Assembly (NCBI GenBank): GCA_003224055.1
Contig: QHYE01000067.1
Location: 1 to 64,000 of the forward strand
Direction of reading: 5' to 3'
DNA from: Acidobacteriota bacterium
Lineage (GTDB): Bacteria > Acidobacteriota > Terriglobia > Acidiferrales > UBA7541
DNA: 64,000 nucleotides
Part shown: in pieces, positions 32,671 through 43,281 of the stretch
How positions within the stretch are numbered: position 1 is the stretch's first letter
How the letters are laid out: every line of letters starts with the position of its first letter
Notes under the pieces: generated by a model
Databases searched by the model: none
What the model saw: only the letters and a program-made list of their open reading frames with translations
Told to the model about the DNA's origin: nothing
Translations under genes and position numbers: made by a program

Positions 32671-33270
32671 TCAGGATTCCGGGACGGGCGGGCAGCCGGG
32701 GAATTCGCTCAGGGTGGCGTTCCCTATATATTGCAGGTCGGCGATGCCGATCTTGCTGGTGTAGAAGCCGTCGCAGGTGAGGCGGCGTAGGAAGGCGAAG
32801 AACGCCACGCCCTGGCTGAGCGAGGAATCCAGTTTGGCATTTTTCCGGAAGGCGATCAGGTCCAGAACTTCTTTCTTCTGCTCCGAGGTGCATTCCAGGA
32901 AAACCTTGCCATAGCGGTCGGTGCAAAAGCCATCCAGCCAGAAGAGTCCGCCGCCGAGGCGCAGCTGATACTTTTCGTTTTCGCTGGCCAGCAAATCGAT
33001 GAATTCCGGAGCGCCGGCTTCGACGGCGCCGCCGGATTTTTCGTCCTTGGGAATAATCGCGTCGCAGAGCGCGATGAGCGTGGCGTACTGCGGCGCAGGG
33101 AAAAATTTAGGCGTGTACTTCCCTGCCGGAGCCGCGGCTTTCTCCTTGTGTACCATCTGGTGGACGTACTCGGCGGCGGCCGCTGGAATCACCTGCAGCA
33201 CCGAGCTGCTCGCCGCTCCCACCGCCAGCGTCCTCAAAACATCTCGCCGGCTTATGCCTTCCTTCATCAT
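32671..33270 (-). CDS. Gluconate 2-dehydrogenase subunit 3-family protein (Tat-signal small subunit of a GMC dehydrogenase)
   Basis: 199-residue small subunit. The Tat signal 'SRRDVLRTLAVGAASSSVLQ' precedes the family body with 'ALCDAIIPKDEKSGGAVEAG', 'FIDLLASENEKYQLRLGGGL' and 'FFAFLRRLTCDGFYTSKIGI'. Such subunits bind FAD-dependent GMC dehydrogenases and carry them across the membrane by Tat hitch-hiking. I chose the ATG at 33270 because AAGGAG lies 10 nt upstream; 33279 would be too close to it. It is the last gene of the operon that begins at 39493, following GMC oxidoreductase 33405-35108. Confidence 0.87.
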   Translation of the reverse strand: MMKEGISRRDVLRTLAVGAASSSVLQVIPAAAAEYVHQMVHKEKAAAPAGKYTPKFFPAPQYATLIALCDAIIPKDEKSGGAVEAGAPEFIDLLASENEKYQLRLGGGLFWLDGFCTDRYGKVFLECTSEQKKEVLDLIAFRKNAKLDSSLSQGVAFFAFLRRLTCDGFYTSKIGIADLQYIGNATLSEFPGCPPVPES

Positions 33271-33404
33271 ATTCCGCATGCTCCTTCTCTTTCTTCTTCT
33301 CTTTGGTCCTCAGTGTTCTCCGTACCGAAACCCGTTTTTCCGTTCACCGCTGCGGCCTTCCCCCAGTGCAGGCCCTCCACTTTTGACTTTCAACTTTTAA
33401 CTTC

Positions 33405-35108
33405 TCAAAGATTGCCTTTCTTGGCTTCGTCGAGCAAATAGTCGGAGGCGCGCCAGGAGAGCGCCATAATCGTCAGCGTTGGATTCTTGTCCGGGTTGGT
33501 CACCAGCGACGCGCCATCGGCTACAAAGAGATTTTTCACGTCGTGCGCCTGGCAATATCCGTTCAGCACGGAGGTTTTCGCGTCGGCGCCCATGCGCGCG
33601 GTGCCTACTTCGTGAATGATTTTCCCGCCTTCCTCAATTCCGAAGGGGTACTGGCCATCAATGGAAGTTTTCGTTTTGTACTCGCCTCCCATAGTCTCCA
33701 CAATGCTGCGAAATGTATCCTGCATGTCTTTGGCCTGACGCAGTTCGTATTCCGACCACTTGAAATGGAAGCGCAGCACGGGAATTCCCCACTGGTCGAC
33801 GACGTCGGGATCGATTTCGCAATAGGTATCCGGATTGGGAAGCATTTCGCCGCGGCCGGCAAAGCCGATCGTGGTGCCGTAATACTGGCGTGCGCGCTGC
33901 TTCAACTTTGTGCCGTAGCCCTCCTCCTCGCGACACAGCCCATCGAACATGCCGACCCCAGGCATCTCGTAGCCGCCGTTGAACTCGATGTGATAGCCGC
34001 GTGGAAAATCGTTCTTGCGGTCGAACTTCCACCACGGCATGTACATGTGCATTCCGCCCACGCCGTCGTGGTTGTGCGGCGGCATCTTTTCCAATTGCGG
34101 GAAGTGGCCACGGCCGCTGCTCCCCACGGAATCGGTGAGGTATCTGCCGACCGTGCCGGAGGAGTTAGCGATACCGTTGGGGAAGGCGGAGGACTTGGAG
34201 TTCAGCAAAAGGCGGGCGGATTCGCAGGCGCTGGCGGCAACCACGATGGCGCGCGCGTTGATGCGTTTTTCCGTGCGCGACGCTTTATCGATGTAGGAGA
34301 CGCCTTCGGCCTTGCCCTCTTTGTTGACGATGATTTCGCGCGCCATGGCGCCGGTGATCAGCGTCAGCTTCCCCGTTTTCATCGCGGGAGGGAGCAAGAC
34401 CTGGCTCGAACTGAAATTCGATCCGGTGATGCACCCGCGACCGCACTGGCCGCAATAGTGGCACGGCGTACGGCCGTTCACAGAGCGCGTCAGAATCGCG
34501 AGGCGTGAGGGAATGCAAATGATGCCGAGCTTGTCGCAGACCTTTTTGACCATCAACTCGGTGCAGCGGGGCTTGGGCGGAGGGAGAAAGACGCCGTCCG
34601 GGGCGCTGGAAACATTTTCCTTCGTGCCGAAGACACCGATGTAGGATTCAACTTTGTCGTAATACGGCGCGAGGTCTTTATAGGTGATGGGCCAGTCGTC
34701 GCCGAGGCCGTCGCGCGTCGCAGATTTGAAATCGATGGGAGCAAACCGCAGCGCGATGCGGCCCCAGTGGTTGGTGCGTCCGCCGACGATGCGCGAGCGG
34801 AACCACTGGAAATTGGCGCCGGGGGCGGAGGTGTAGGGCTCGCCATCAATTTGCCAGGCCCCGTTGGGGGCGAGGAATTCGCTAAAATTTTCGCGCGCGT
34901 GGCCGCCGACCCCGGCGCCGCGATGCGGCAATTGGTAGGGCCAGGTCCACATCTTGAAATCTTTTTCGGGATTGACGTTCGGGCCGGCTTCGAGCAGAGC
35001 GCAGCTCAGGCCGCCTTCCGTGAGAATCTTCGCGGCCATGCCGCCGCCGGCGCCGGAGCCGATGATGCAGACGTCATACTGTTTCGGAGAGCGAATTACC
35101 TGGGGCAT
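33405..35108 (-). CDS. GMC-family FAD-dependent sugar oxidoreductase 1
   Basis: 567-residue flavoprotein that probably oxidises a sugar or glycoside hydroxyl in the periplasm. FAD is bound by 'DVCIIGSGAGGGMAAKIL' (12-29) and 'ALLEAG' (37-42). 'RIVGGRTNHWGRIALRF' (106-122) is the GMC signature. The C-terminal 'HEVGTARMG' and 'NPTLTIMALSWRASDYLL' supply the catalytic His and Asn. Cysteines at 216, 219, 222 and 226 ('CHYCGQCGRGC') form a CX2CX2CX3C motif, which could hold an iron-sulfur cluster. It has no signal peptide, so export would depend on the small subunit at 32671. It is 15 nt from GMC 2. Confidence 0.91.
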   Translation of the reverse strand: MPQVIRSPKQYDVCIIGSGAGGGMAAKILTEGGLSCALLEAGPNVNPEKDFKMWTWPYQLPHRGAGVGGHARENFSEFLAPNGAWQIDGEPYTSAPGANFQWFRSRIVGGRTNHWGRIALRFAPIDFKSATRDGLGDDWPITYKDLAPYYDKVESYIGVFGTKENVSSAPDGVFLPPPKPRCTELMVKKVCDKLGIICIPSRLAILTRSVNGRTPCHYCGQCGRGCITGSNFSSSQVLLPPAMKTGKLTLITGAMAREIIVNKEGKAEGVSYIDKASRTEKRINARAIVVAASACESARLLLNSKSSAFPNGIANSSGTVGRYLTDSVGSSGRGHFPQLEKMPPHNHDGVGGMHMYMPWWKFDRKNDFPRGYHIEFNGGYEMPGVGMFDGLCREEEGYGTKLKQRARQYYGTTIGFAGRGEMLPNPDTYCEIDPDVVDQWGIPVLRFHFKWSEYELRQAKDMQDTFRSIVETMGGEYKTKTSIDGQYPFGIEEGGKIIHEVGTARMGADAKTSVLNGYCQAHDVKNLFVADGASLVTNPDKNPTLTIMALSWRASDYLLDEAKKGNL

Positions 35109-35123
35109 GTCGACGATTTCTCC

Positions 35124-36809
35124 CTACAGCTCATTTTTCTTCATTGCGGAAACGGCGAAATCGCATGCGCGCGCCGTCAGCGCCATGTAGGTAAGCGACG
35201 GATTCACGCACGAAGCGGAAACCATGCACGCGCCGTCGGTCATGAAAAGATTTCTGGCATCGTGCGCCTGGTTGTTGGCGTTGAGCACGGAGGTTTTTGG
35301 ATCGCGGCCCATGCGGGCGGTGCCCATTTCGTGAATGGCGAGGCCGGGGGCAGAAATTTTCTGCCAGACGGTGATGTCCTTCGCGCCGCCGGCGGCCAGG
35401 ATTTCCGCGGCCTGGATGGCGATGTCCTTGGACATGGCCCGTTCGTTTTCGCTCCAGTCGCAGTGAATCTTCAGAGTGGGAATGCCCCAGGCGTCGAGTT
35501 TTTCCTTGTCCACTTCGACGAAATTGTTGTGATTGGGGAGGCACTCGCCGAAACCGCCCATGCCCATGTGCCAGGGGCCGGGCATTTTCAGCGCATTCTT
35601 GAATTCCACGCCGAGGCCACTCATGCCCATGCCGCGGGACCAGCCGGCGCGGCTCCCGCCGCCCTGATAGCCGTAGCCGCGGAGGAAATCCTTGTGCTTG
35701 GATTTTACGTTTCGAAAGCGCGGGATGTAAATGCCGTTGGGGCGATTGCCGAAAGGCATTTTGTCTTCGTGGCCGGGCATTCTTCCGCTGGCGCCGGCGC
35801 CCATGTGGTGGTCCATGAGATTGTGGCCGAGTTCGCCGCTGGAGTTTGCGAGGCCGTTGGGAAATTCGGGAGTGGCGGAATTCAGCAAAATGCGCGTGGA
35901 TTCGAGAGTGGAACCGCAGACGAAAAAGATGCGGGCTTTGAATTCGAGGGGATTTTTGGTTTGACCATCGATCACGCGAACGCCGCTGACGCGGCGAGCT
36001 TTCGAATCGAAGGCGAGGCTGTGAACCACGCTGTAGGGACGGATGGTGAGACGGCCGGTTTTTTGCGCGGCGGGGAGCGTCGAACTCAAACTGCTGAAAT
36101 ACGAGCCGGTGATGCAGCCGCGGTGGCACACGCCGCAGTAGTGGCAGGCGGCGCGGCCTTTGTGGACGCGGGTCAAAACAGCGGAACGGCCAATGGTCAA
36201 GATGCGGTCGTCAAAGTTCTTTGCGATGGCGGCGCGGAGATCCTGCTCGACGCAAGTGAGTTCCATGGGCGGGAGAAATTTTCCGTCAGGGAGTTGCGGC
36301 AAACCTTCGGGCTGGCCGCTGATGCCGGCGAATTCTTCAACGTAGTCGTACCAGGGAGCGATGTCCGCATAACGAATCGGCCAGTCGGCGGCGATTCCCT
36401 CTTTCAAATTGGCTTCGAAATCGAGATCGCTCCAGCGGTAACTTTGGCGGCCCCAGGTGAGGGATTTTCCGCCAACCTGGCGGCCACGAATCCAGGAGAA
36501 ATGTTTGCCGGGATCGCTGGAATAGGGATTCTCCTGGTCATTGACAAAAAACTGATGGGAGTATTCATCGCAGGCGTAGTAGACCTCGCGCTGGATGGGC
36601 TGGGTGCGCTGGCGCTCGCTGCGATCGTCCCAGCCACGGTGCTTGAGTTCCCAAACGGGGACGTGCTCGACATAGTCGCGCTCGGGGACGATAGAACGTC
36701 CCGCTTCGAGGACCAAAGTATTGAGGCCCTTTTCGGTGAGCTCTTTCGCAGCCCAGCCGCCGGTGATGCCTGAACCGATAACGATTGCATCGTAATTTGT
36801 CGTTGCCAT
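35124..36809 (-). CDS. GMC-family FAD-dependent sugar oxidoreductase 2
   Basis: 561-residue paralogue of the neighbouring GMC enzyme. FAD binding is by 'YDAIVIGSGITGGWAAKEL' (6-24) and 'LVLEAG' (32-37), with the signature region 'RQVGGKSLTWGRQSYRW' (110-126). The C-terminus carries 'HEMGTARMG' and 'NPSLTYMALTARACDF', with the catalytic His/Asn pair. Cysteines 222, 225, 228 and 232 ('CHYCGVCHRGC') repeat the CX2CX2CX3C motif. There is no signal peptide; the partner is presumably the Tat-signal subunit encoded just upstream at 36825-37424 (15-nt gap). The two GMC enzymes may act on different positions or substrates. A 668-residue plus-strand frame across these genes is antisense. Confidence 0.91.
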   Translation of the reverse strand: MATTNYDAIVIGSGITGGWAAKELTEKGLNTLVLEAGRSIVPERDYVEHVPVWELKHRGWDDRSERQRTQPIQREVYYACDEYSHQFFVNDQENPYSSDPGKHFSWIRGRQVGGKSLTWGRQSYRWSDLDFEANLKEGIAADWPIRYADIAPWYDYVEEFAGISGQPEGLPQLPDGKFLPPMELTCVEQDLRAAIAKNFDDRILTIGRSAVLTRVHKGRAACHYCGVCHRGCITGSYFSSLSSTLPAAQKTGRLTIRPYSVVHSLAFDSKARRVSGVRVIDGQTKNPLEFKARIFFVCGSTLESTRILLNSATPEFPNGLANSSGELGHNLMDHHMGAGASGRMPGHEDKMPFGNRPNGIYIPRFRNVKSKHKDFLRGYGYQGGGSRAGWSRGMGMSGLGVEFKNALKMPGPWHMGMGGFGECLPNHNNFVEVDKEKLDAWGIPTLKIHCDWSENERAMSKDIAIQAAEILAAGGAKDITVWQKISAPGLAIHEMGTARMGRDPKTSVLNANNQAHDARNLFMTDGACMVSASCVNPSLTYMALTARACDFAVSAMKKNEL

Positions 36810-36824
36810 GTTCGCTCCCTTTTT

Positions 36825-37424
36825 TCAGGCGTCTCCGAGACCGGGGCCGCGCGGAACGCAACCGTGCTGGGCACCGGGAATAATTTGAAGTTTGAGTTCC
36901 AGGGTGAAACCAATTTCGGAAGTGTAATACCCGTGAAGGGTGATGTTTTTGAAGACGGAAAAGAAATTGCCTTCGAGCTGCCTGTAGGGGTTTTCCACTT
37001 CGTCGTCGCGGCTAGGCGGGCGGATGGCCGATTCGAACGCAGCGGCTTCGTCCAGGGCGCGGAGAAGCGTGAGCTGTTGCAGAGGCGGAGTGTCCACAAA
37101 ATCTTTAGCGAAGAGTTCGTTGCTTTTCTTGTCGACGCCGGCGAGGCCGTCGAGAAGATTCTTGCGCTCCGTATCGTTGGCCCACTCGGTGAGAATGACG
37201 TCGATAAACTCGTTGACGCGGGCGCCCTTCGCGCCAGGGGTGTCCGTTTCAGGAATGATCTGATCGATCATGGCGACAACGGTGGCGTTCTGGTGCGGAT
37301 TGAGAGTGCGTAGCGCGTAGCCAGCCGCAGGATGTGCGCCGCGAAAGAATGCAAACATGTCCGTGGAAAGCGCCGGCAGCGCGGCTCCCGCGGCAAGCAT
37401 TCGTAACATTTCACGCCGATGCAT
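36825..37424 (-). CDS. Gluconate 2-dehydrogenase subunit 3-family protein (partner of GMC 2)
   Basis: 199-residue small subunit. The N-terminus 'MHRREMLRMLAAGAALPALS' is Tat-like (RRE). The body carries 'VVAMIDQIIPETDTPGAKGA', 'FIDVILTEWANDTERKNLLD' and 'FFSVFKNITLHGYYTSEIGF', matching the subunit at 32671. The start at 37424 has GGGAGG 4 nt upstream; the same frame continues to 38159 but that part is antisense-like shadow. It overlaps the preceding isomerase stop by 14 nt and is 15 nt before GMC 2, so it is tightly co-translated. Confidence 0.88.
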   Translation of the reverse strand: MHRREMLRMLAAGAALPALSTDMFAFFRGAHPAAGYALRTLNPHQNATVVAMIDQIIPETDTPGAKGARVNEFIDVILTEWANDTERKNLLDGLAGVDKKSNELFAKDFVDTPPLQQLTLLRALDEAAAFESAIRPPSRDDEVENPYRQLEGNFFSVFKNITLHGYYTSEIGFTLELKLQIIPGAQHGCVPRGPGLGDA

Positions 37425-38361
37425 AGAACCTCCCTGAGTGAAGCGTGTTGGAAGACTGTTTCTTATCGGGACGGCCGAACTTGATCGCCATTTCGCGGGC
37501 GGCGCGAAGCGCGGGCACCGTTTCGCCCTTGGGCATGAATTCCATCGCGACGTAGCGGCTGTAGCCGAGTTCGCCGAGCTTTCGAAAAATGTTTGGATAA
37601 TAGATTTCGCCGGTTCCGGGATCGTGGCGGCCGGGAACGTCGGCGACGTGGACGAGGCCGATGAGATCGATATTTTTTTCGAGCTTGGCGATGAGGTTGC
37701 CGGCGGCAATTTGTTCGTGAAAAAAATCGTAAAGAAATTTGACATGGGGATTGCCGACGGAGCGCACGATTTCGAAGCCTTCGGCGGAAAGCGTGAGGAA
37801 ATATTTGGGATTTTCTTCGGGATCGATATTTTCGATGAGGAGCTCGATGCTGTTTTCCGCGGCGATTTCGCCGCCGCGTTTGAGGGTTTCGATGCAATTG
37901 GCGTGCATTTCATTTCGCGAGAGACCGGGAACAGCGTCGCCGGTCTGCATGATGAGGCGAGTGCACTCGAGTTCGCGCATGGTGGGAATAAATTCGCGGA
38001 GAGATTTGAGGAAGACTTCGCGAGCGGAGGCGTCGGCCAGGGGCTGCCAGACGCCGGTGGTGCCGTCGAATTCAATGCCGAGTTCACGCTTTTTGCGGCG
38101 GGCGTTGGCAAAATCCTGCTTTTTCCAGTCCTTGAATTCTCCGACCAATTCGACGGCATGGTAGCCCGCTTCGGCTACTTTTTCCAGGCGCTGTTCGAAT
38201 GGAAGATCGCGGTAGATAGTCCAAAGCATTACGGAGAGAGAGAAAGGAACGCCCTCGGGTTCGGAGGCAGCCGACGCGGCGCGCGCCATCGTCGATGGGC
38301 CGGCAGCGGCACCGGCCAAAGCCGCTGCGGCACACGCGCCGACAAATTCGCGTCTTCGCAC
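37411..38361 (-). CDS. Tat-exported hydroxypyruvate isomerase-like sugar isomerase/epimerase
   Basis: 316-residue TIM barrel of the xylose-isomerase-like superfamily. With the GTG start at 38361 the protein opens directly with a Tat signal (V-RRREFVGACAAAALAG). GGGAG lies 7 nt upstream, which makes GTG better than the ATG at 38391 inside the previous gene. Barrel signatures are 'EAGYHAVELVGEFKDW', 'LLIENIDPEENP', 'VKFLYDFFHEQIAAGNL' and 'GLVHVADVPGRHDPGTGEI', which resemble hydroxypyruvate isomerases with Glu/Asp/His metal ligands. Its periplasmic position and GMC neighbours suggest action on an oxidised sugar. The start is one nucleotide after the TAG of the preceding isomerase gene. Confidence 0.87.
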   Translation of the reverse strand: MRRREFVGACAAAALAGAAAGPSTMARAASAASEPEGVPFSLSVMLWTIYRDLPFEQRLEKVAEAGYHAVELVGEFKDWKKQDFANARRKKRELGIEFDGTTGVWQPLADASAREVFLKSLREFIPTMRELECTRLIMQTGDAVPGLSRNEMHANCIETLKRGGEIAAENSIELLIENIDPEENPKYFLTLSAEGFEIVRSVGNPHVKFLYDFFHEQIAAGNLIAKLEKNIDLIGLVHVADVPGRHDPGTGEIYYPNIFRKLGELGYSRYVAMEFMPKGETVPALRAAREMAIKFGRPDKKQSSNTLHSGRFYASA

Positions 38362-38362
38362 G

Positions 38363-39493
38363 CTATTCTCCCAAAAGTTCCCGGCGGACATTCTTTAAGA
38401 CGTAAGCCGCGCGCTCGACGCCCACTTCTCCGGGCAGAATCGGGTCTTCATTTTCGATGCTAAGAATGCCTTCGAATCCGACGTCCATGTAAGCCTTAAT
38501 GACAGACTTCCAGAGGCTGGCGCTGTGACCGTAGCCAACAGCGCGGAAAGTTTCAGACGCGGAGTCGAGATCGGACTTTTCGAAGGCGAAGTTCAGGACG
38601 CCGTACTTGTTGACATTTTCGGGATAGAAAGTGGTGTCCTTCATGTGGGCGTGAAAGAGGGCGCCCTGCTTGCCGAGGAAATGAATGACTTCGACGGGAT
38701 CGCAGCCTTGCCAGAAAAGGTGGCTCAGATCGCAGTTCGCGCCGATTTCTTCGCCGACGGCTTCGCGGAGCTTCATCAGCGTTCGAGGGTTGTAGACGAC
38801 GAAGTTCGGATGCATTTCGAACGCCAGGCGTTTGATGCCGTGATCGCGCGCGTATTTGGCCGCTTCCTTCCAGTAGGGGATGACTTTTTCCTTCCATTGC
38901 CAATCCTGCATCTGGGCGTACTCGGGAGGCCAGCGGTAAGTGATCCAGTTTGGCTGGGTGTCTTGCGGCGTGCCGCCGGGACAACCGGAAAAGCCAACGA
39001 TGACTTTCACGTCGAGCATTTCGGCGAGGAGGACGGTCTTGCGAAAGGTGCCTATGTCTTTCTGGGCATGCTTGGCATCGGGATGAACGGGGTTCCCGTG
39101 GCAACTGAGGGTGGCAACGCGAATCCCCTTGTCTTCAAATTTTTTCTGCCAGGCCTTGGCCTTGCTGCGATCGGCGATGAGCTCGTCGAGGGGACAATGA
39201 CGATTGTTGGGATAGCCGCCGGTCCCGATTTCCATGGCCTCGAGGCCGAGGGCGCTGACCCTATCGAGCATGGCGTCGAGAGAGAGATGTTCGTAGACGG
39301 GGTCAAAGACGCCGATGGGAATCTTGCGGAGGGAACCTGAAGGCTTCGGGACACGAGAATGCGATGACGGAGCGGCGGCTTCCACGACATCGGCGACTTT
39401 TGCCGAACCCGGAATGGCAGCGGCGAGCAGGCCCCCGGTGGCAGCAAGAAACTGTCTCCGGTCGAGAGCGGAGTCCTTGCGCGGTTTCCTCAT
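38363..39493 (-). CDS. Tat-exported sugar isomerase/epimerase, first gene of the GMC operon
   Basis: 376-residue TIM-barrel protein. The Tat signal 'LDRRQFLAATGGLLAAAIPG' begins near residue 10. Barrel features include 'ALGLEAMEIGTGGYPN', 'VATLSCHGNPVHPD', 'RLAFEMHPNFVVYN', 'GANCDLSHLFWQGCDPVEVI' and 'LFHAHMKDTTFYPENV', with the metal-binding Glu/His/Asp set of sugar isomerase/epimerases. GAGGAG lies 6 nt before the ATG. It heads a six-gene minus-strand operon (39493 down to 32671) with spacings of 1, -14, 15, 15 and about 130 nt. A promoter is seen at 39547-39574. Confidence 0.88.
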   Translation of the reverse strand: MRKPRKDSALDRRQFLAATGGLLAAAIPGSAKVADVVEAAAPSSHSRVPKPSGSLRKIPIGVFDPVYEHLSLDAMLDRVSALGLEAMEIGTGGYPNNRHCPLDELIADRSKAKAWQKKFEDKGIRVATLSCHGNPVHPDAKHAQKDIGTFRKTVLLAEMLDVKVIVGFSGCPGGTPQDTQPNWITYRWPPEYAQMQDWQWKEKVIPYWKEAAKYARDHGIKRLAFEMHPNFVVYNPRTLMKLREAVGEEIGANCDLSHLFWQGCDPVEVIHFLGKQGALFHAHMKDTTFYPENVNKYGVLNFAFEKSDLDSASETFRAVGYGHSASLWKSVIKAYMDVGFEGILSIENEDPILPGEVGVERAAYVLKNVRRELLGE

Positions 39494-39754: not shown

Positions 39755-39781
39755 TGTCGATTTTGCGGCCTCCCGTTCGAC
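39755..39781 (+). promoter_or_regulatory. ECF42-type promoter of the small membrane-protein gene
   Basis: TGTCGA (39755-39760), 17-nt spacer, CGAC (39778-39781), followed by ATGTAG. The -35 element extends to TGTCGATTTTGC and the -10 flank reads CGTTCGAC, almost identical to the promoters at 40184 and 40874. It lies 44 nt before the ATG at 39822. Confidence 0.7.
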
Positions 39782-39821
39782 ATGTAGGTAGAGCCAGGGA
39801 AGGTGCCCTGGGGAGGCCGTT

Positions 39822-40109
39822 ATGGAAAGGAAGCACACACGCACTCCGAGACTTAGAACGATTGGCGTAACTGTCCTCGGCGGGCTCGGGATTTATTTTC
39901 TGTTGGAGAACTTGGGATGCGCCGCAGGCCAGTTAAGGGAACTTTTCTGCGGCGTGGCGGGGGGTAGGCTGGGGGTGCTCCCTTCCATCGTCGTGGCGGC
40001 CTGGCAAATCATGCAGGCGAATGGGCTTGAACACCGGCTTTTGGAGTGTTTGTTCCAGTTGTTGCTATCCCTTTGGCCGCTACTCCTTGCTGTGGCCGGG
40101 GCGAGCTAG
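39822..40109 (+). CDS. Small two-helix membrane protein in the ECF42 locus, unknown function
   Basis: 95-residue protein. A basic N-terminus (MERKHTRTPRLRT) leads into a hydrophobic helix ('IGVTVLGGLGIYFLLENLG') and a second C-terminal hydrophobic helix ('LLECLFQLLLSLWPLLLAVA'), with three cysteines in between or at the helix edges. It matches no family I know. Support for a real gene comes from GGGGAGG 6 nt before the ATG and from an ECF42-type promoter 44 nt upstream identical in layout to those before the YCII genes. It would be made together with the YCII proteins when the sigma factor at 41968 is active. Confidence 0.55.
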   Translation: MERKHTRTPRLRTIGVTVLGGLGIYFLLENLGCAAGQLRELFCGVAGGRLGVLPSIVVAAWQIMQANGLEHRLLECLFQLLLSLWPLLLAVAGAS

Positions 40110-40183: not shown

Positions 40184-40210
40184 TGTCGATTTCACCGTTG
40201 CTCGTTCGAC
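40184..40210 (+). promoter_or_regulatory. ECF42-type promoter of YCII gene 1
   Basis: TGTCGA (40184-40189), 17-nt spacer, CGAC (40207-40210) in the context CTCGTTCGACGTGTAG. It lies 93 nt before the start at 40300. Confidence 0.75.
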
Positions 40211-40299
40211 GTGTAGATGGAGGCCGAGTTCAGCCTATCGAGGCTGTCAGGAAGCCCGGCGCCAAACGAGGAACTATAAACCAACAGGAGATATTGACG

Positions 40300-40731
40300 A
40301 TGCGATTCATGGTAATAGTGAAAGCGGACAAGAATTCGGAAGCAGGAGTTCTGCCGAGCAAGGAAATCTTAACTGCGATGGGGAAATATAACGAGGAGTT
40401 GGTAAAGGCCGGCGTGATGCTCGCCGGCGAGGGGCTGCAAGCGAGCTCGAAGGGCAAGCGTATCAGGTTTTCGGGACAGCAGCGCACGGTGATCGACGGA
40501 CCTTTCGCCGAATCCAAGGAACTCATCGCCGGCTTCTGGCTGTGGCAGGTGAAGTCCATGGAAGAAGCGGTCGAATGGCTCAAGCGGGCTCCGTTCGACG
40601 GAGGAACTGAGATCGAGATCCGCCAGGTGTTCGAGGCTTCAGACTTCCCGTCCGACATCTTCCCCGCCGAGGAAGCGGCGCGGGAGCAAGCGCTGCGCGA
40701 CGGGCTGCAGAAGAAAGCTGCGAAACGGTAG
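40300..40731 (+). CDS. YCII-related (DGPF-domain) protein 1
   Basis: 143-residue ferredoxin-like-fold protein. The family starts 'MRFMVIVKADKNSEAG' and carries the hallmark 'VIDGPFAESKELIAGFWLWQ' (the D-G-P-F motif). A C-terminal tail of about 30 charged residues ('PAEEAAREQALRDGLQKKAA') is longer than in its two neighbours. Biochemical activity is unknown; DGPF proteins are the typical partners and targets of ECF42 sigma factors. The start at 40300 has AGGAG 9 nt upstream. It is the first of three paralogues ahead of the sigma gene. Confidence 0.88.
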   Translation: MRFMVIVKADKNSEAGVLPSKEILTAMGKYNEELVKAGVMLAGEGLQASSKGKRIRFSGQQRTVIDGPFAESKELIAGFWLWQVKSMEEAVEWLKRAPFDGGTEIEIRQVFEASDFPSDIFPAEEAAREQALRDGLQKKAAKR

Positions 40732-40873: not shown

Positions 40874-40900
40874 TGTCGATTTTGCTGACTCTCGTTCGAC
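40874..40900 (+). promoter_or_regulatory. ECF42-type promoter of YCII gene 2
   Basis: TGTCGA (40874-40879), 17-nt spacer, CGAC (40897-40900) in the context CTCGTTCGACGTGTAA. It lies 85 nt before the start at 40982. Confidence 0.75.
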
Positions 40901-40981
40901 GTGTAAAGGGAGGCTGGGTTCCGCCGGTTGAAACTTCCGAACGACCCAGCTCCCAACCCGAAACCACAAGGAGAAATGAAA

Positions 40982-41356
40982 ATGCGATTCATGATGATTG
41001 TTAAGTCCGCCGAGAAATGGGGCTTCCCGCCCAAGCAGTTGATGGAGGCCATCGGCAGGCTCAGCGAAGAGGCGGTCCAATCTGGCGCGATGGTCGGCAG
41101 CGGGGGGCTCCGCCCAACTGCTCAGGGCGCTTGCGTCCGGCTCAAGGGAGGGCAAGTCACCGTTATTGACGGGCCTTTCACGGAGGCCAAGGAGGTCGTC
41201 GGCGGGTATGCGCAGTTTGACTTGAAGTCGAAAGAAGAAGCGATTAAATCGGCGACGCGCTTCATGGAACTTCACAAGCAACACTGGCCGGGATGGGAAG
41301 GCGAGACTGAGATTCGCGAGATGTTCAATCCGGAGGACCTCGTTCCCAAAGTATAG
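40982..41356 (+). CDS. YCII-related (DGPF-domain) protein 2
   Basis: 124-residue paralogue of the adjacent YCII proteins: 'MRFMMIVKSAEKWGFPPKQL' at the start and 'VIDGPFTEAKEVVGGYAQFD' with the DGPF motif in the middle, ending near the family boundary ('EIREMFNPEDLVPKV'). The ATG at 40982 is 8 nt after AAGGAG and so preferred to the ATG at 40976. It has its own ECF42-type promoter, so the paralogues are probably separately transcribed targets of the same sigma factor. Confidence 0.88.
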   Translation: MRFMMIVKSAEKWGFPPKQLMEAIGRLSEEAVQSGAMVGSGGLRPTAQGACVRLKGGQVTVIDGPFTEAKEVVGGYAQFDLKSKEEAIKSATRFMELHKQHWPGWEGETEIREMFNPEDLVPKV

Positions 41357-41566: not shown

Positions 41567-41929
41567 ATGAAATTTCTGAGCATCTATAAGTCTGTGGAAA
41601 CAGGCGTTCCCCCCACACAGGAGGAAATGGACAAGATGGGCAAGTTGATCGAGCAGGAGATGAAGGCCGGCACGCTGCTCGCCACCGAGGGCTGCCTGCC
41701 AAGCGCCCTCGGAGCGCGGGTGCGCATCTCTGGCGGGAAGCTGACGGTGACCGACGGACCTTTCACCGAGGCCAAGGAGGTAGTCGGCGGCTTCGCCATC
41801 CTCCAGGCAAACTCAAAGGCAGAGGCCATCGAAATGGTCAAGAATTTCCTCGAGGTTGCCGGTGAGGGTGAGTGCGAGCTTCGCCAGGTATTCGAGGCGC
41901 CGCAAGCACACTGCGCCGCGAAGTTCTAG
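41567..41929 (+). CDS. YCII-related (DGPF-domain) protein 3
   Basis: 120-residue paralogue: 'MKFLSIYKSVETGVPPTQEE', then 'GKLTVTDGPFTEAKEVVGGF' with the DGPF motif and a short C-terminus. AAGGAGAG lies just upstream of the ATG. Only 38 nt separate its stop from the GTG of the sigma factor gene, so the two are probably one transcript. Its promoter would then also make the sigma factor, giving positive feedback. Confidence 0.88.
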   Translation: MKFLSIYKSVETGVPPTQEEMDKMGKLIEQEMKAGTLLATEGCLPSALGARVRISGGKLTVTDGPFTEAKEVVGGFAILQANSKAEAIEMVKNFLEVAGEGECELRQVFEAPQAHCAAKF

Positions 41930-41967: not shown

Positions 41968-43281
41968 GTGGTGTTATCGGTGGCTGTGACTGCCACCGAT
42001 ATACATCGAGCGATTGACGCCGTCTGGAGAATCGAGTCGCCCAGGCTCATCGGCGGTCTCGTGCGGATCGTGCGCGATGTAAGTCTTGCCGAGGATCTCG
42101 CCCAGGATGCGCTCGTTGCCGCGCTCCAGCAGTGGCAGGAGTCGGGCATCCCGGAGAACCCGGGTGCCTGGCTCATGGCCGCCGCCAAGCATCGTGCGAT
42201 TGATCTCTTTCGGCGCAGCAAGCTCCTCGAGCGCAAACACGAGGAGCTTGGCCGCGAGCTCGATGCCCGGCAGGAGGCGCTGGTGCCGGATTTCGAAACC
42301 GCGCTCGACGATGACATCGGCGACGACCTACTGCGCCTTGTGTTCATCTCCTGTCATCCGGTTCTCTCGCCTGAGGCGCGCGTTGCGCTCACACTACGCT
42401 TACTGGGCGGACTGACTACCGAAGAGATCGCGCGTGCGTTCCTGATGCCGGAGCCAACGGTGGCCCAGCGAATCGTTCGTGCCAAGCGAACCCTCGCCGA
42501 GAAGCACGTCCCCTTCGAGGTTCCGCGCGGAGACGAGCGCGCTGCTCGTCTGTCGTCGGTGTTGGAGGTCCTCTACCTGATTTTCAATGAAGGCTACTCG
42601 GCAACCGCCGGGGAAGACTGGATGCGGGCTGGGCTCTGCGAGGAGGCGCTGCGTCTTGGCCGCATCCTGGCGGAGCTGGCGCCGCAGGAGCCGGAAGTCC
42701 ACGGACTGGTAGCGCTGATGGAGATCCAGGCGTCGCGCTCACACGCGCGTATTGGCCCGTCGGGAGAGCCCATCCTGCTGCTCGAACAAAACCGCGCGCT
42801 CTGGGATCAGCTCCTCATCCATCGCGGTCTGGCCGCGCTCGAGCGTGCGGGGAAGATCGGAGGCAGCCGGGGGCCGTATGCACTCCAGGCTGCGATTGCA
42901 GCCTGCCATGCCCGCGCGCGCACCCCGGAGGAAACAGACTGGGCGCGCATCGTGGCACTCTACGGGGAGCTCGCTAAGCTCGCGCCATCTCCGGTTGTGG
43001 AGCTGAATCGGGCGGTGGCAGTCGCAATGGCATCTGGTCCGGCAGCGGGGGTGGAGCTGGTTGACGCGCTGACCGCCGAGCCGTCGCTCCAGGCGTATCA
43101 CTTACTGCCGAGCGTGCGCGGCGACCTGCTGGCAAAAATCGGCCGCACGGATGAGGCTCGAGCGGAGTTCGAGCGCGCGGCTACGTTGACGCGCAACACA
43201 CGCGAGCGGGAGCTGTTGCTGAATCGCGCGCGGACCTGCGCAGAGGGTTCCCATGGCGAAGGCGACAAAAGCGGCGCGTGA
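41968..43281 (+). CDS. ECF42-type RNA polymerase sigma factor with C-terminal TPR-like extension
   Basis: 437-residue sigma factor. Region 2 is about 10-75 ('LVRIVRDVSLAEDLAQDALV', 'NPGAWLMAAAKHRAIDLFRR') and region 4 about 110-165 ('FISCHPVLSPEARVALTLRL', 'GGLTTEEIARAFLMPEPTVA'). About 260 further residues of helical repeats ('LLPSVRGDLLAKIGRTDEAR') replace an anti-sigma partner. This long form next to YCII/DGPF genes defines the ECF42 group, in which the extension is needed for activity; the triggering signal is unknown. Possible starts are GTG at 41968, 41971 and 41980. No anti-sigma gene is adjacent; the next gene converges 3 nt away. Confidence 0.92.
   Translation: MVLSVAVTATDIHRAIDAVWRIESPRLIGGLVRIVRDVSLAEDLAQDALVAALQQWQESGIPENPGAWLMAAAKHRAIDLFRRSKLLERKHEELGRELDARQEALVPDFETALDDDIGDDLLRLVFISCHPVLSPEARVALTLRLLGGLTTEEIARAFLMPEPTVAQRIVRAKRTLAEKHVPFEVPRGDERAARLSSVLEVLYLIFNEGYSATAGEDWMRAGLCEEALRLGRILAELAPQEPEVHGLVALMEIQASRSHARIGPSGEPILLLEQNRALWDQLLIHRGLAALERAGKIGGSRGPYALQAAIAACHARARTPEETDWARIVALYGELAKLAPSPVVELNRAVAVAMASGPAAGVELVDALTAEPSLQAYHLLPSVRGDLLAKIGRTDEARAEFERAATLTRNTRERELLLNRARTCAEGSHGEGDKSGA

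Follow-up and report, generated by a model that had tools for sequence, protein, structure and literature searches.

A probable LiaI/LiaF-like membrane protein as a candidate member of an acidobacterial ECF42 regulon

The window analyzed here, a 64,000-nt stretch of DNA from a genus of soil Acidobacteria, contains a cluster in which the gene for a small membrane-type protein, called P95 (the protein of the ORF at positions 39822–40109), precedes three YCII genes and the gene of an ECF42 sigma factor. P95 is a genuine, fast-evolving protein-coding gene, and its promoter and position mark it as a putative direct member of an autoregulated ECF42 regulon, with ECF42 presumably binding at its promoter. 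We consider it probable, if not firmly established, that P95 is a membrane effector or anchor induced by ECF42 rather than a sensor, by analogy with the LiaI/LiaF-like proteins, of which it appears to represent a lineage-specific family. The ECF42 group is found in many phyla. As the sole convincing target in the genome outside the YCII genes under a strict promoter pattern, P95 narrows the search for the signal and the protein partner of ECF42 to the cell envelope and makes, together with ECF42, a defined pair whose interaction can be examined. Moreover, a sigma-factor regulon and a two-component envelope-stress operon here have a component type in common.

Features of the ECF42 cluster

39755..39786, + strand: ECF42-type promoter of P95, TGTCGA-N16-TCGAC with A after CGAC (0 expected by chance)
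39785..39795, + strand: leader box TAGGTAGAGCC immediately following the -10 element, common to the YCII leaders (column counts over 20 P95 and 31 YCII sites)
39810..39816, + strand: ribosome-binding site (RBS) of P95, GGGGAGG, 5 nt before the ATG (from the sequence; usual in orthologues)
39822..40109, + strand: P95 gene, 95 codons, ATG start, putative LiaI/LiaF-like membrane protein
40184..40215, + strand: ECF42-type promoter of the first YCII gene (pattern search)
40300..40731, + strand: YCII/DGPF-type gene a (PF03795, 65.2 bits)
40874..40905, + strand: ECF42-type promoter of the second YCII gene (pattern search)
40982..41356, + strand: YCII gene b (PF03795, 35.2 bits)
41567..41929, + strand: YCII gene c, without a site of its own (PF03795, 52.4 bits)
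41968..43281, + strand: ECF42 sigma factor gene, without a site of its own (sigma2, sigma4, DUF6596 (PF20239), weak C-terminal TPR matches)

Coding status and conservation of P95

In a protein search of 101 relatives, P95 homologues turned up in numerous genomes of its own genus, and a 14-member profile gave 44 matches in 26 of the 36 genomes of the genus, most of the genomes compared being drafts. Among 250 genomes of the class, the family was present in 2 of 94 genera. Gene neighborhoods divided it into two groups: P95 proper, with 26 members including that of the window, each with an ECF42 site before its ATG, and a paralogous group, LP, which lacks ECF42 sites and carries a C-terminal tail.

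At the 26 P95 loci, every frame was open, the protein length was 92–108 amino acids, and a GGAGG-like RBS was usually present. Only sense frame 0 was open, the shifted and antisense frames being broken by stops. The median dN/dS was 0.47, with values below 1 in all 259 measurable pairs, and the corresponding ratios in the shifted and antisense frames were 0.57–1.24. In a set of 120 locus pairs used for all proteins alike, P95 had a median identity of 33%, against 60% and 69% in two of the YCII proteins and 82% in ECF42; P95 showed the lowest conservation in the cluster. This fast divergence, together with searches in which P95 matched nothing above the Pfam cut-off and nothing at all in NCBIfam, would fit a spurious ORF, with the site at 39755–39786 driving the YCII genes only. 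However, the start, RBS, frame, and length are kept at 26 loci, dN/dS stays below 1 throughout, and the YCII genes possess separate ECF42 sites; because of the conservation and the dN/dS values, this explanation is rejected and has practically no chance of being correct. The original prediction of a 95-codon ORF with an ATG start and a good RBS is confirmed. Rather than a lack of homologues or an unconserved frame, which it had named as the outcomes that would count against it, the proposed search beside ECF42 genes found homologues at 26 loci with both site and frame conserved, and the proposed Ka/Ks analysis gave a ratio below 1 in every measurable pair.

ECF42-type promoter sites

The pattern TGTCGATTT-N10-CGTTCGAC-N-TGTA is common to all three sites of the window, with equal internal spacing, and a search allowing up to three mismatches found these 3 sites against 0.00 expected from 100 shuffles, which confirms the ECF42-type promoter-like site that had been predicted before P95. 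The accompanying claim that its spacing was exactly that of the YCII sites holds between the promoter boxes but not for the leader, because the distance from site to ATG is 67 nt for P95 (62–69 nt across the 26 P95 loci) and 116 and 108 nt for the YCII genes. Across the 4.5-Mb draft genome, matches to the strict pattern TGTCGA-N16-TCGAC were rare, with 4 forward and 3 reverse, and the reversed control pattern had none. Three of these matches are those of the window and one lies 48 nt before a YCII gene at a second ECF42 locus (contig C60); one reverse match arises from the palindromic nature of the P95 site, and neither of the two remaining matches is followed by a convincing gene where one would be expected. 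P95 is the only convincing non-YCII target under this pattern.

The P95 and YCII sites differ in the base after CGAC, which was A in 15 of 20 P95 sites and G in all 31 YCII sites of these clusters (Fisher p 5e-9, an optimistic value since related loci are not independent). The A turns the P95 site into a perfect palindrome, TGTCGA-N16-TCGACA, as seen at 39755–39786 and at most of the P95 sites of loci L029, L030, L046, L047, and L076–L087, and it may give the P95 promoter a different strength. In both classes of sites, a leader box, GTAGAG, occurs shortly past the -10 element. A divergent promoter role for the palindromic site was considered and rejected, since conservation of the flanks upstream is confined to near relatives and no divergent gene is conserved there.

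The cluster across the genus

The usual gene order is P95, one to three YCII genes, and ECF42, with P95 first at nearly all loci, so that P95 is linked both to YCII neighbors and to a sigma factor with sigma2, sigma4, and a DUF6596/TPR extension. P95 was present at 23 of the 26 assessable loci of the genus with an ECF42 of the window's type and missing at L099, L101, and L102; a further locus, L100, was left out of this count because a contig end cuts the cluster. P95 distances track ECF42 distances (r 0.51, p 0.0005, 22 loci), whereas the flanks upstream of P95 are unrelated between loci, near relatives excepted, indicating that P95 marks the edge of the cluster unit. A single genome from another genus of the family (G047, locus L098) carries the whole cluster, and its P95 falls within the diversity of the genus, suggesting that the cluster may have been transferred as a unit. 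The ECF42 tree was poorly resolved; the P95-less locus L099 was weakly placed among P95-bearing loci, which weakly points to a loss of P95 there. With an ECF42-type promoter at a fixed distance and the frame kept at 26 loci, the view of P95 as a conserved, membrane-type candidate ECF42 target was borne out.

Several other arrangements were observed in these regions. In one of the two P95 clusters of the draft genome G029, YCII gene a is split by a frameshift (L034:767-1101, contig C232). A solitary P95-like ORF without an ECF42 site (L036:7116-7505) adjoins msrP/msrQ-like genes (methionine sulfoxide repair) in a genome, G017, that additionally has a regular P95 locus. Upstream of P95, the window (32671–39493, - strand) holds what seem to be GMC oxidoreductase genes in tandem, along with genes for small partner subunits and for sugar isomerase-like proteins, a set resembling a sugar or glycoside oxidation cluster.

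ECF42 loci beyond the genus

ECF42 proteins of the window's type occur across phyla at 65–85% identity. At 80 named ECF42 loci, a YCII gene followed 42 of the 56 sites with a downstream ORF, and relatives of P95 followed a site in only four acidobacterial-type records, one of which (L139) is labelled Betaproteobacteria. P95 was therefore rejected as a general ECF42 partner, ECF42 being present without it in other phyla and families; since ECF42 elsewhere mostly lacks P95, P95 is an accessory part of an old regulon, specific to its lineage. In other phyla, ECF42-type sites also preceded genes for an MFS transporter, alpha/beta hydrolases, a DHFR-like protein, and a small conserved protein (L165:662, L212:7804, L213:3687, L191:4805, and L199:3241; gene names assigned by eye), which are candidate ECF42 targets beyond YCII.

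Membrane segments, family, and origin of P95

Hydropathy analysis placed hydrophobic stretches of P95 at about residues 12–34, 41–66, and 73–94, behind a basic N-terminus. The protein, predicted to have two helices, is not strictly of this form: a third, weaker stretch, which could alter the topology, lies between the two candidate membrane helices, and a low-confidence AlphaFold model (pLDDT 56, five sequences used) has three helices. The two membrane segments are only moderately hydrophobic, with median Kyte–Doolittle values of 1.90 and 1.52 in P95 against 2.08 and 2.34 in LP. By the same hydropathy profile, the putative cytoplasmic end comprises about 12 residues before the first stretch and none after the last. 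A search of solved structures with P95 gave weak matches only, read as chance. A phage holin or other phage origin was tried and rejected, the evidence being one weak holin match in one orthologue and no PHROGs match for P95.

P95 had been described as having no recognizable family, which no longer holds: it matched PF18917 (LiaI-LiaF-like TM1) in two separate stretches with 22.3 bits (E 1.4e-4), below the cut-off of 27, and has a paralogue heading a lia-like operon, and is probably a divergent LiaI/LiaF-like transmembrane protein. This paralogue is located as follows.

Contig C22, 19471-19755: LP in the genome of the window, at the head of the lia-like operon

The operon is syntenic, with LP first, followed by a 279-aa protein, a kinase, and a regulator. 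On the basis of Pfam, the 279-aa protein is LiaF-like (PF18917 with 62.8 bits, PF22570, and PF09922), the kinase is a LytS-type histidine kinase (PF06580), and the regulator is a LytTR response regulator. In other families of the class, the slot upstream of the liaF-like gene is occupied by true PF18917 proteins (43.2 and 45.1 bits) or by near-members (24.9 bits); the equivalence of LP to these slot proteins of distant relatives is positional, with the 24.9-bit protein as an intermediate. The LP operons (L037–L044, L085, and L093–L095) also have a conserved leader in common, whose motifs resemble GCCGGTAAAT...GCCGAATCTTGGATGC and CTATTCTCGC; this may be where the regulator encoded in these operons binds.

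The alignment of P95 with LP spans everything from residue 1 through the last helix, and a phylogenetic tree separated the two groups at 98/99 support. In this lineage, the ECF42 regulon thus probably gained a LiaI-like membrane protein by recruitment; the wider spread of the lia-like slot suggests that this went from the LP side to P95 and not the reverse. A tailed, ECF42-linked, and site-preceded long form from another acidobacterium (L152:4940-5394) grouped with LP (86/86), and recruitment to ECF42 may therefore have happened twice, the second time independently.

Possible roles of P95

In the model that we favor, active ECF42 would drive the transcription of P95 and the YCII genes and, by read-through, of ECF42 itself. 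P95 would form a helical hairpin in the inner membrane, its basic N-terminus on the inside, and once induced would act at the membrane as an effector or anchor, much as LiaI is the anchor induced in the Lia response. Of the two branches of the family, LP has stayed at the head of the lia-like operon, whereas P95 lacks the C-terminal tail and would have come under ECF42. Conceivably, P95 acts by recruiting YCII proteins, by shielding the membrane, or through feedback on the LiaF-like protein. The strongest element of this model is the induction of P95 by active ECF42 within an autoregulated cluster; the effector role is argued mainly by analogy and from the lack of support for a sensor role.

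The original prediction had suggested that P95 senses or transmits a signal for ECF42. In such a scheme, a membrane sensor or anti-sigma-like regulator would bind the ECF42 C-terminal extension or a YCII protein and release it upon an envelope signal, which would fit the nearly constant position of P95 beside ECF42, its apparent autoregulation, the correlated divergence of the two proteins, and a review in which the partner of the distal C-terminal extension is unidentified (PMC8999054). The same review, however, names YCII proteins as the likely ECF42 partners. ECF42 is conserved (68–85%) without P95 across many phyla and occurs without it at the three P95-less loci of the genus, and P95, which is conserved less than any other protein of its cluster, evolves far faster than ECF42 (33% vs. 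82% identity over the 120 locus pairs). A putative cytoplasmic part of about 12 residues is too small for a typical anti-sigma domain. Neither Pfam nor NCBIfam gave an anti-sigma family match for P95, and a membrane anti-sigma reading is disfavored by hydropathy, which indicates no cytoplasmic sigma-binding domain beside the helix. That P95 is required as a sensor or anti-sigma factor is unlikely, because ECF42 mostly occurs without P95, P95 diverges rapidly, and it has almost no cytoplasmic mass; the signaling role originally proposed is thus unsupported. In a narrower version, P95 would supply ECF42 with a membrane input in this lineage: a LiaI-type hairpin, captured from an envelope-stress operon, would gate the C-terminal extension of a sigma factor that is not known to have a membrane partner elsewhere. 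This version is distinctly unlikely. We regard as very doubtful a link to the lia-like operon in which P95 and LP would vie for the LiaF-like protein, with ECF42 activation thereby tuning the LytS–LytTR pathway. P95 and LP are indeed full-length paralogues, and LP heads the LiaF–kinase–regulator operon, but seven P95-bearing genomes (G002, G005, G008, G017, G025, G026, and G029) have no detectable LiaF homologue of this type, which also weakens feedback of P95 on this protein. Two of these, G008 and G017, are 95–96% complete; drafts might hide a few homologues, but hardly all seven. An induced anchor or effector remains the most plausible role for P95, given its relationship to the LiaI-type slot.

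Comparison with known systems

In Bacillus subtilis, LiaI is induced and anchors LiaH, which it recruits, at the membrane (PMC9239133). Like LiaI, P95 is a small hydrophobic protein of predicted hairpin type, and its paralogue LP belongs to an envelope-stress-type operon with LiaF-like, kinase, and regulator genes. Unlike LiaI, it appears to answer to ECF42 and not to a two-component system, and it adjoins YCII and ECF42 genes, with no PspA/LiaH-type partner noticed beside it. Its halves, 'LG..FL..NL' and 'FWPLLL..G', match the two halves of PF18917, although about 40 extra residues lie between them and the score is under the cut-off. LP is homologous to P95 end to end, with the same N-terminal pattern and the same two halves, but differs in its C-terminal tail of about 25 residues, its more hydrophobic membrane segments, and its lack of an ECF42 site.

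ECF42 genes cluster with YCII/DGPF genes in Streptomyces venezuelae (Sven_0747) and Pseudomonas putida (ECF-10) (PMC8999054). The window resembles these clusters in that its ECF42 consists of sigma2 and sigma4 with a C-terminal extension bearing DUF6596 and a TPR signal, its YCII genes adjoin ECF42, and TGTCGA...CGAC-type sites precede YCII genes; unlike them, it is headed by a membrane-protein gene with its own site.
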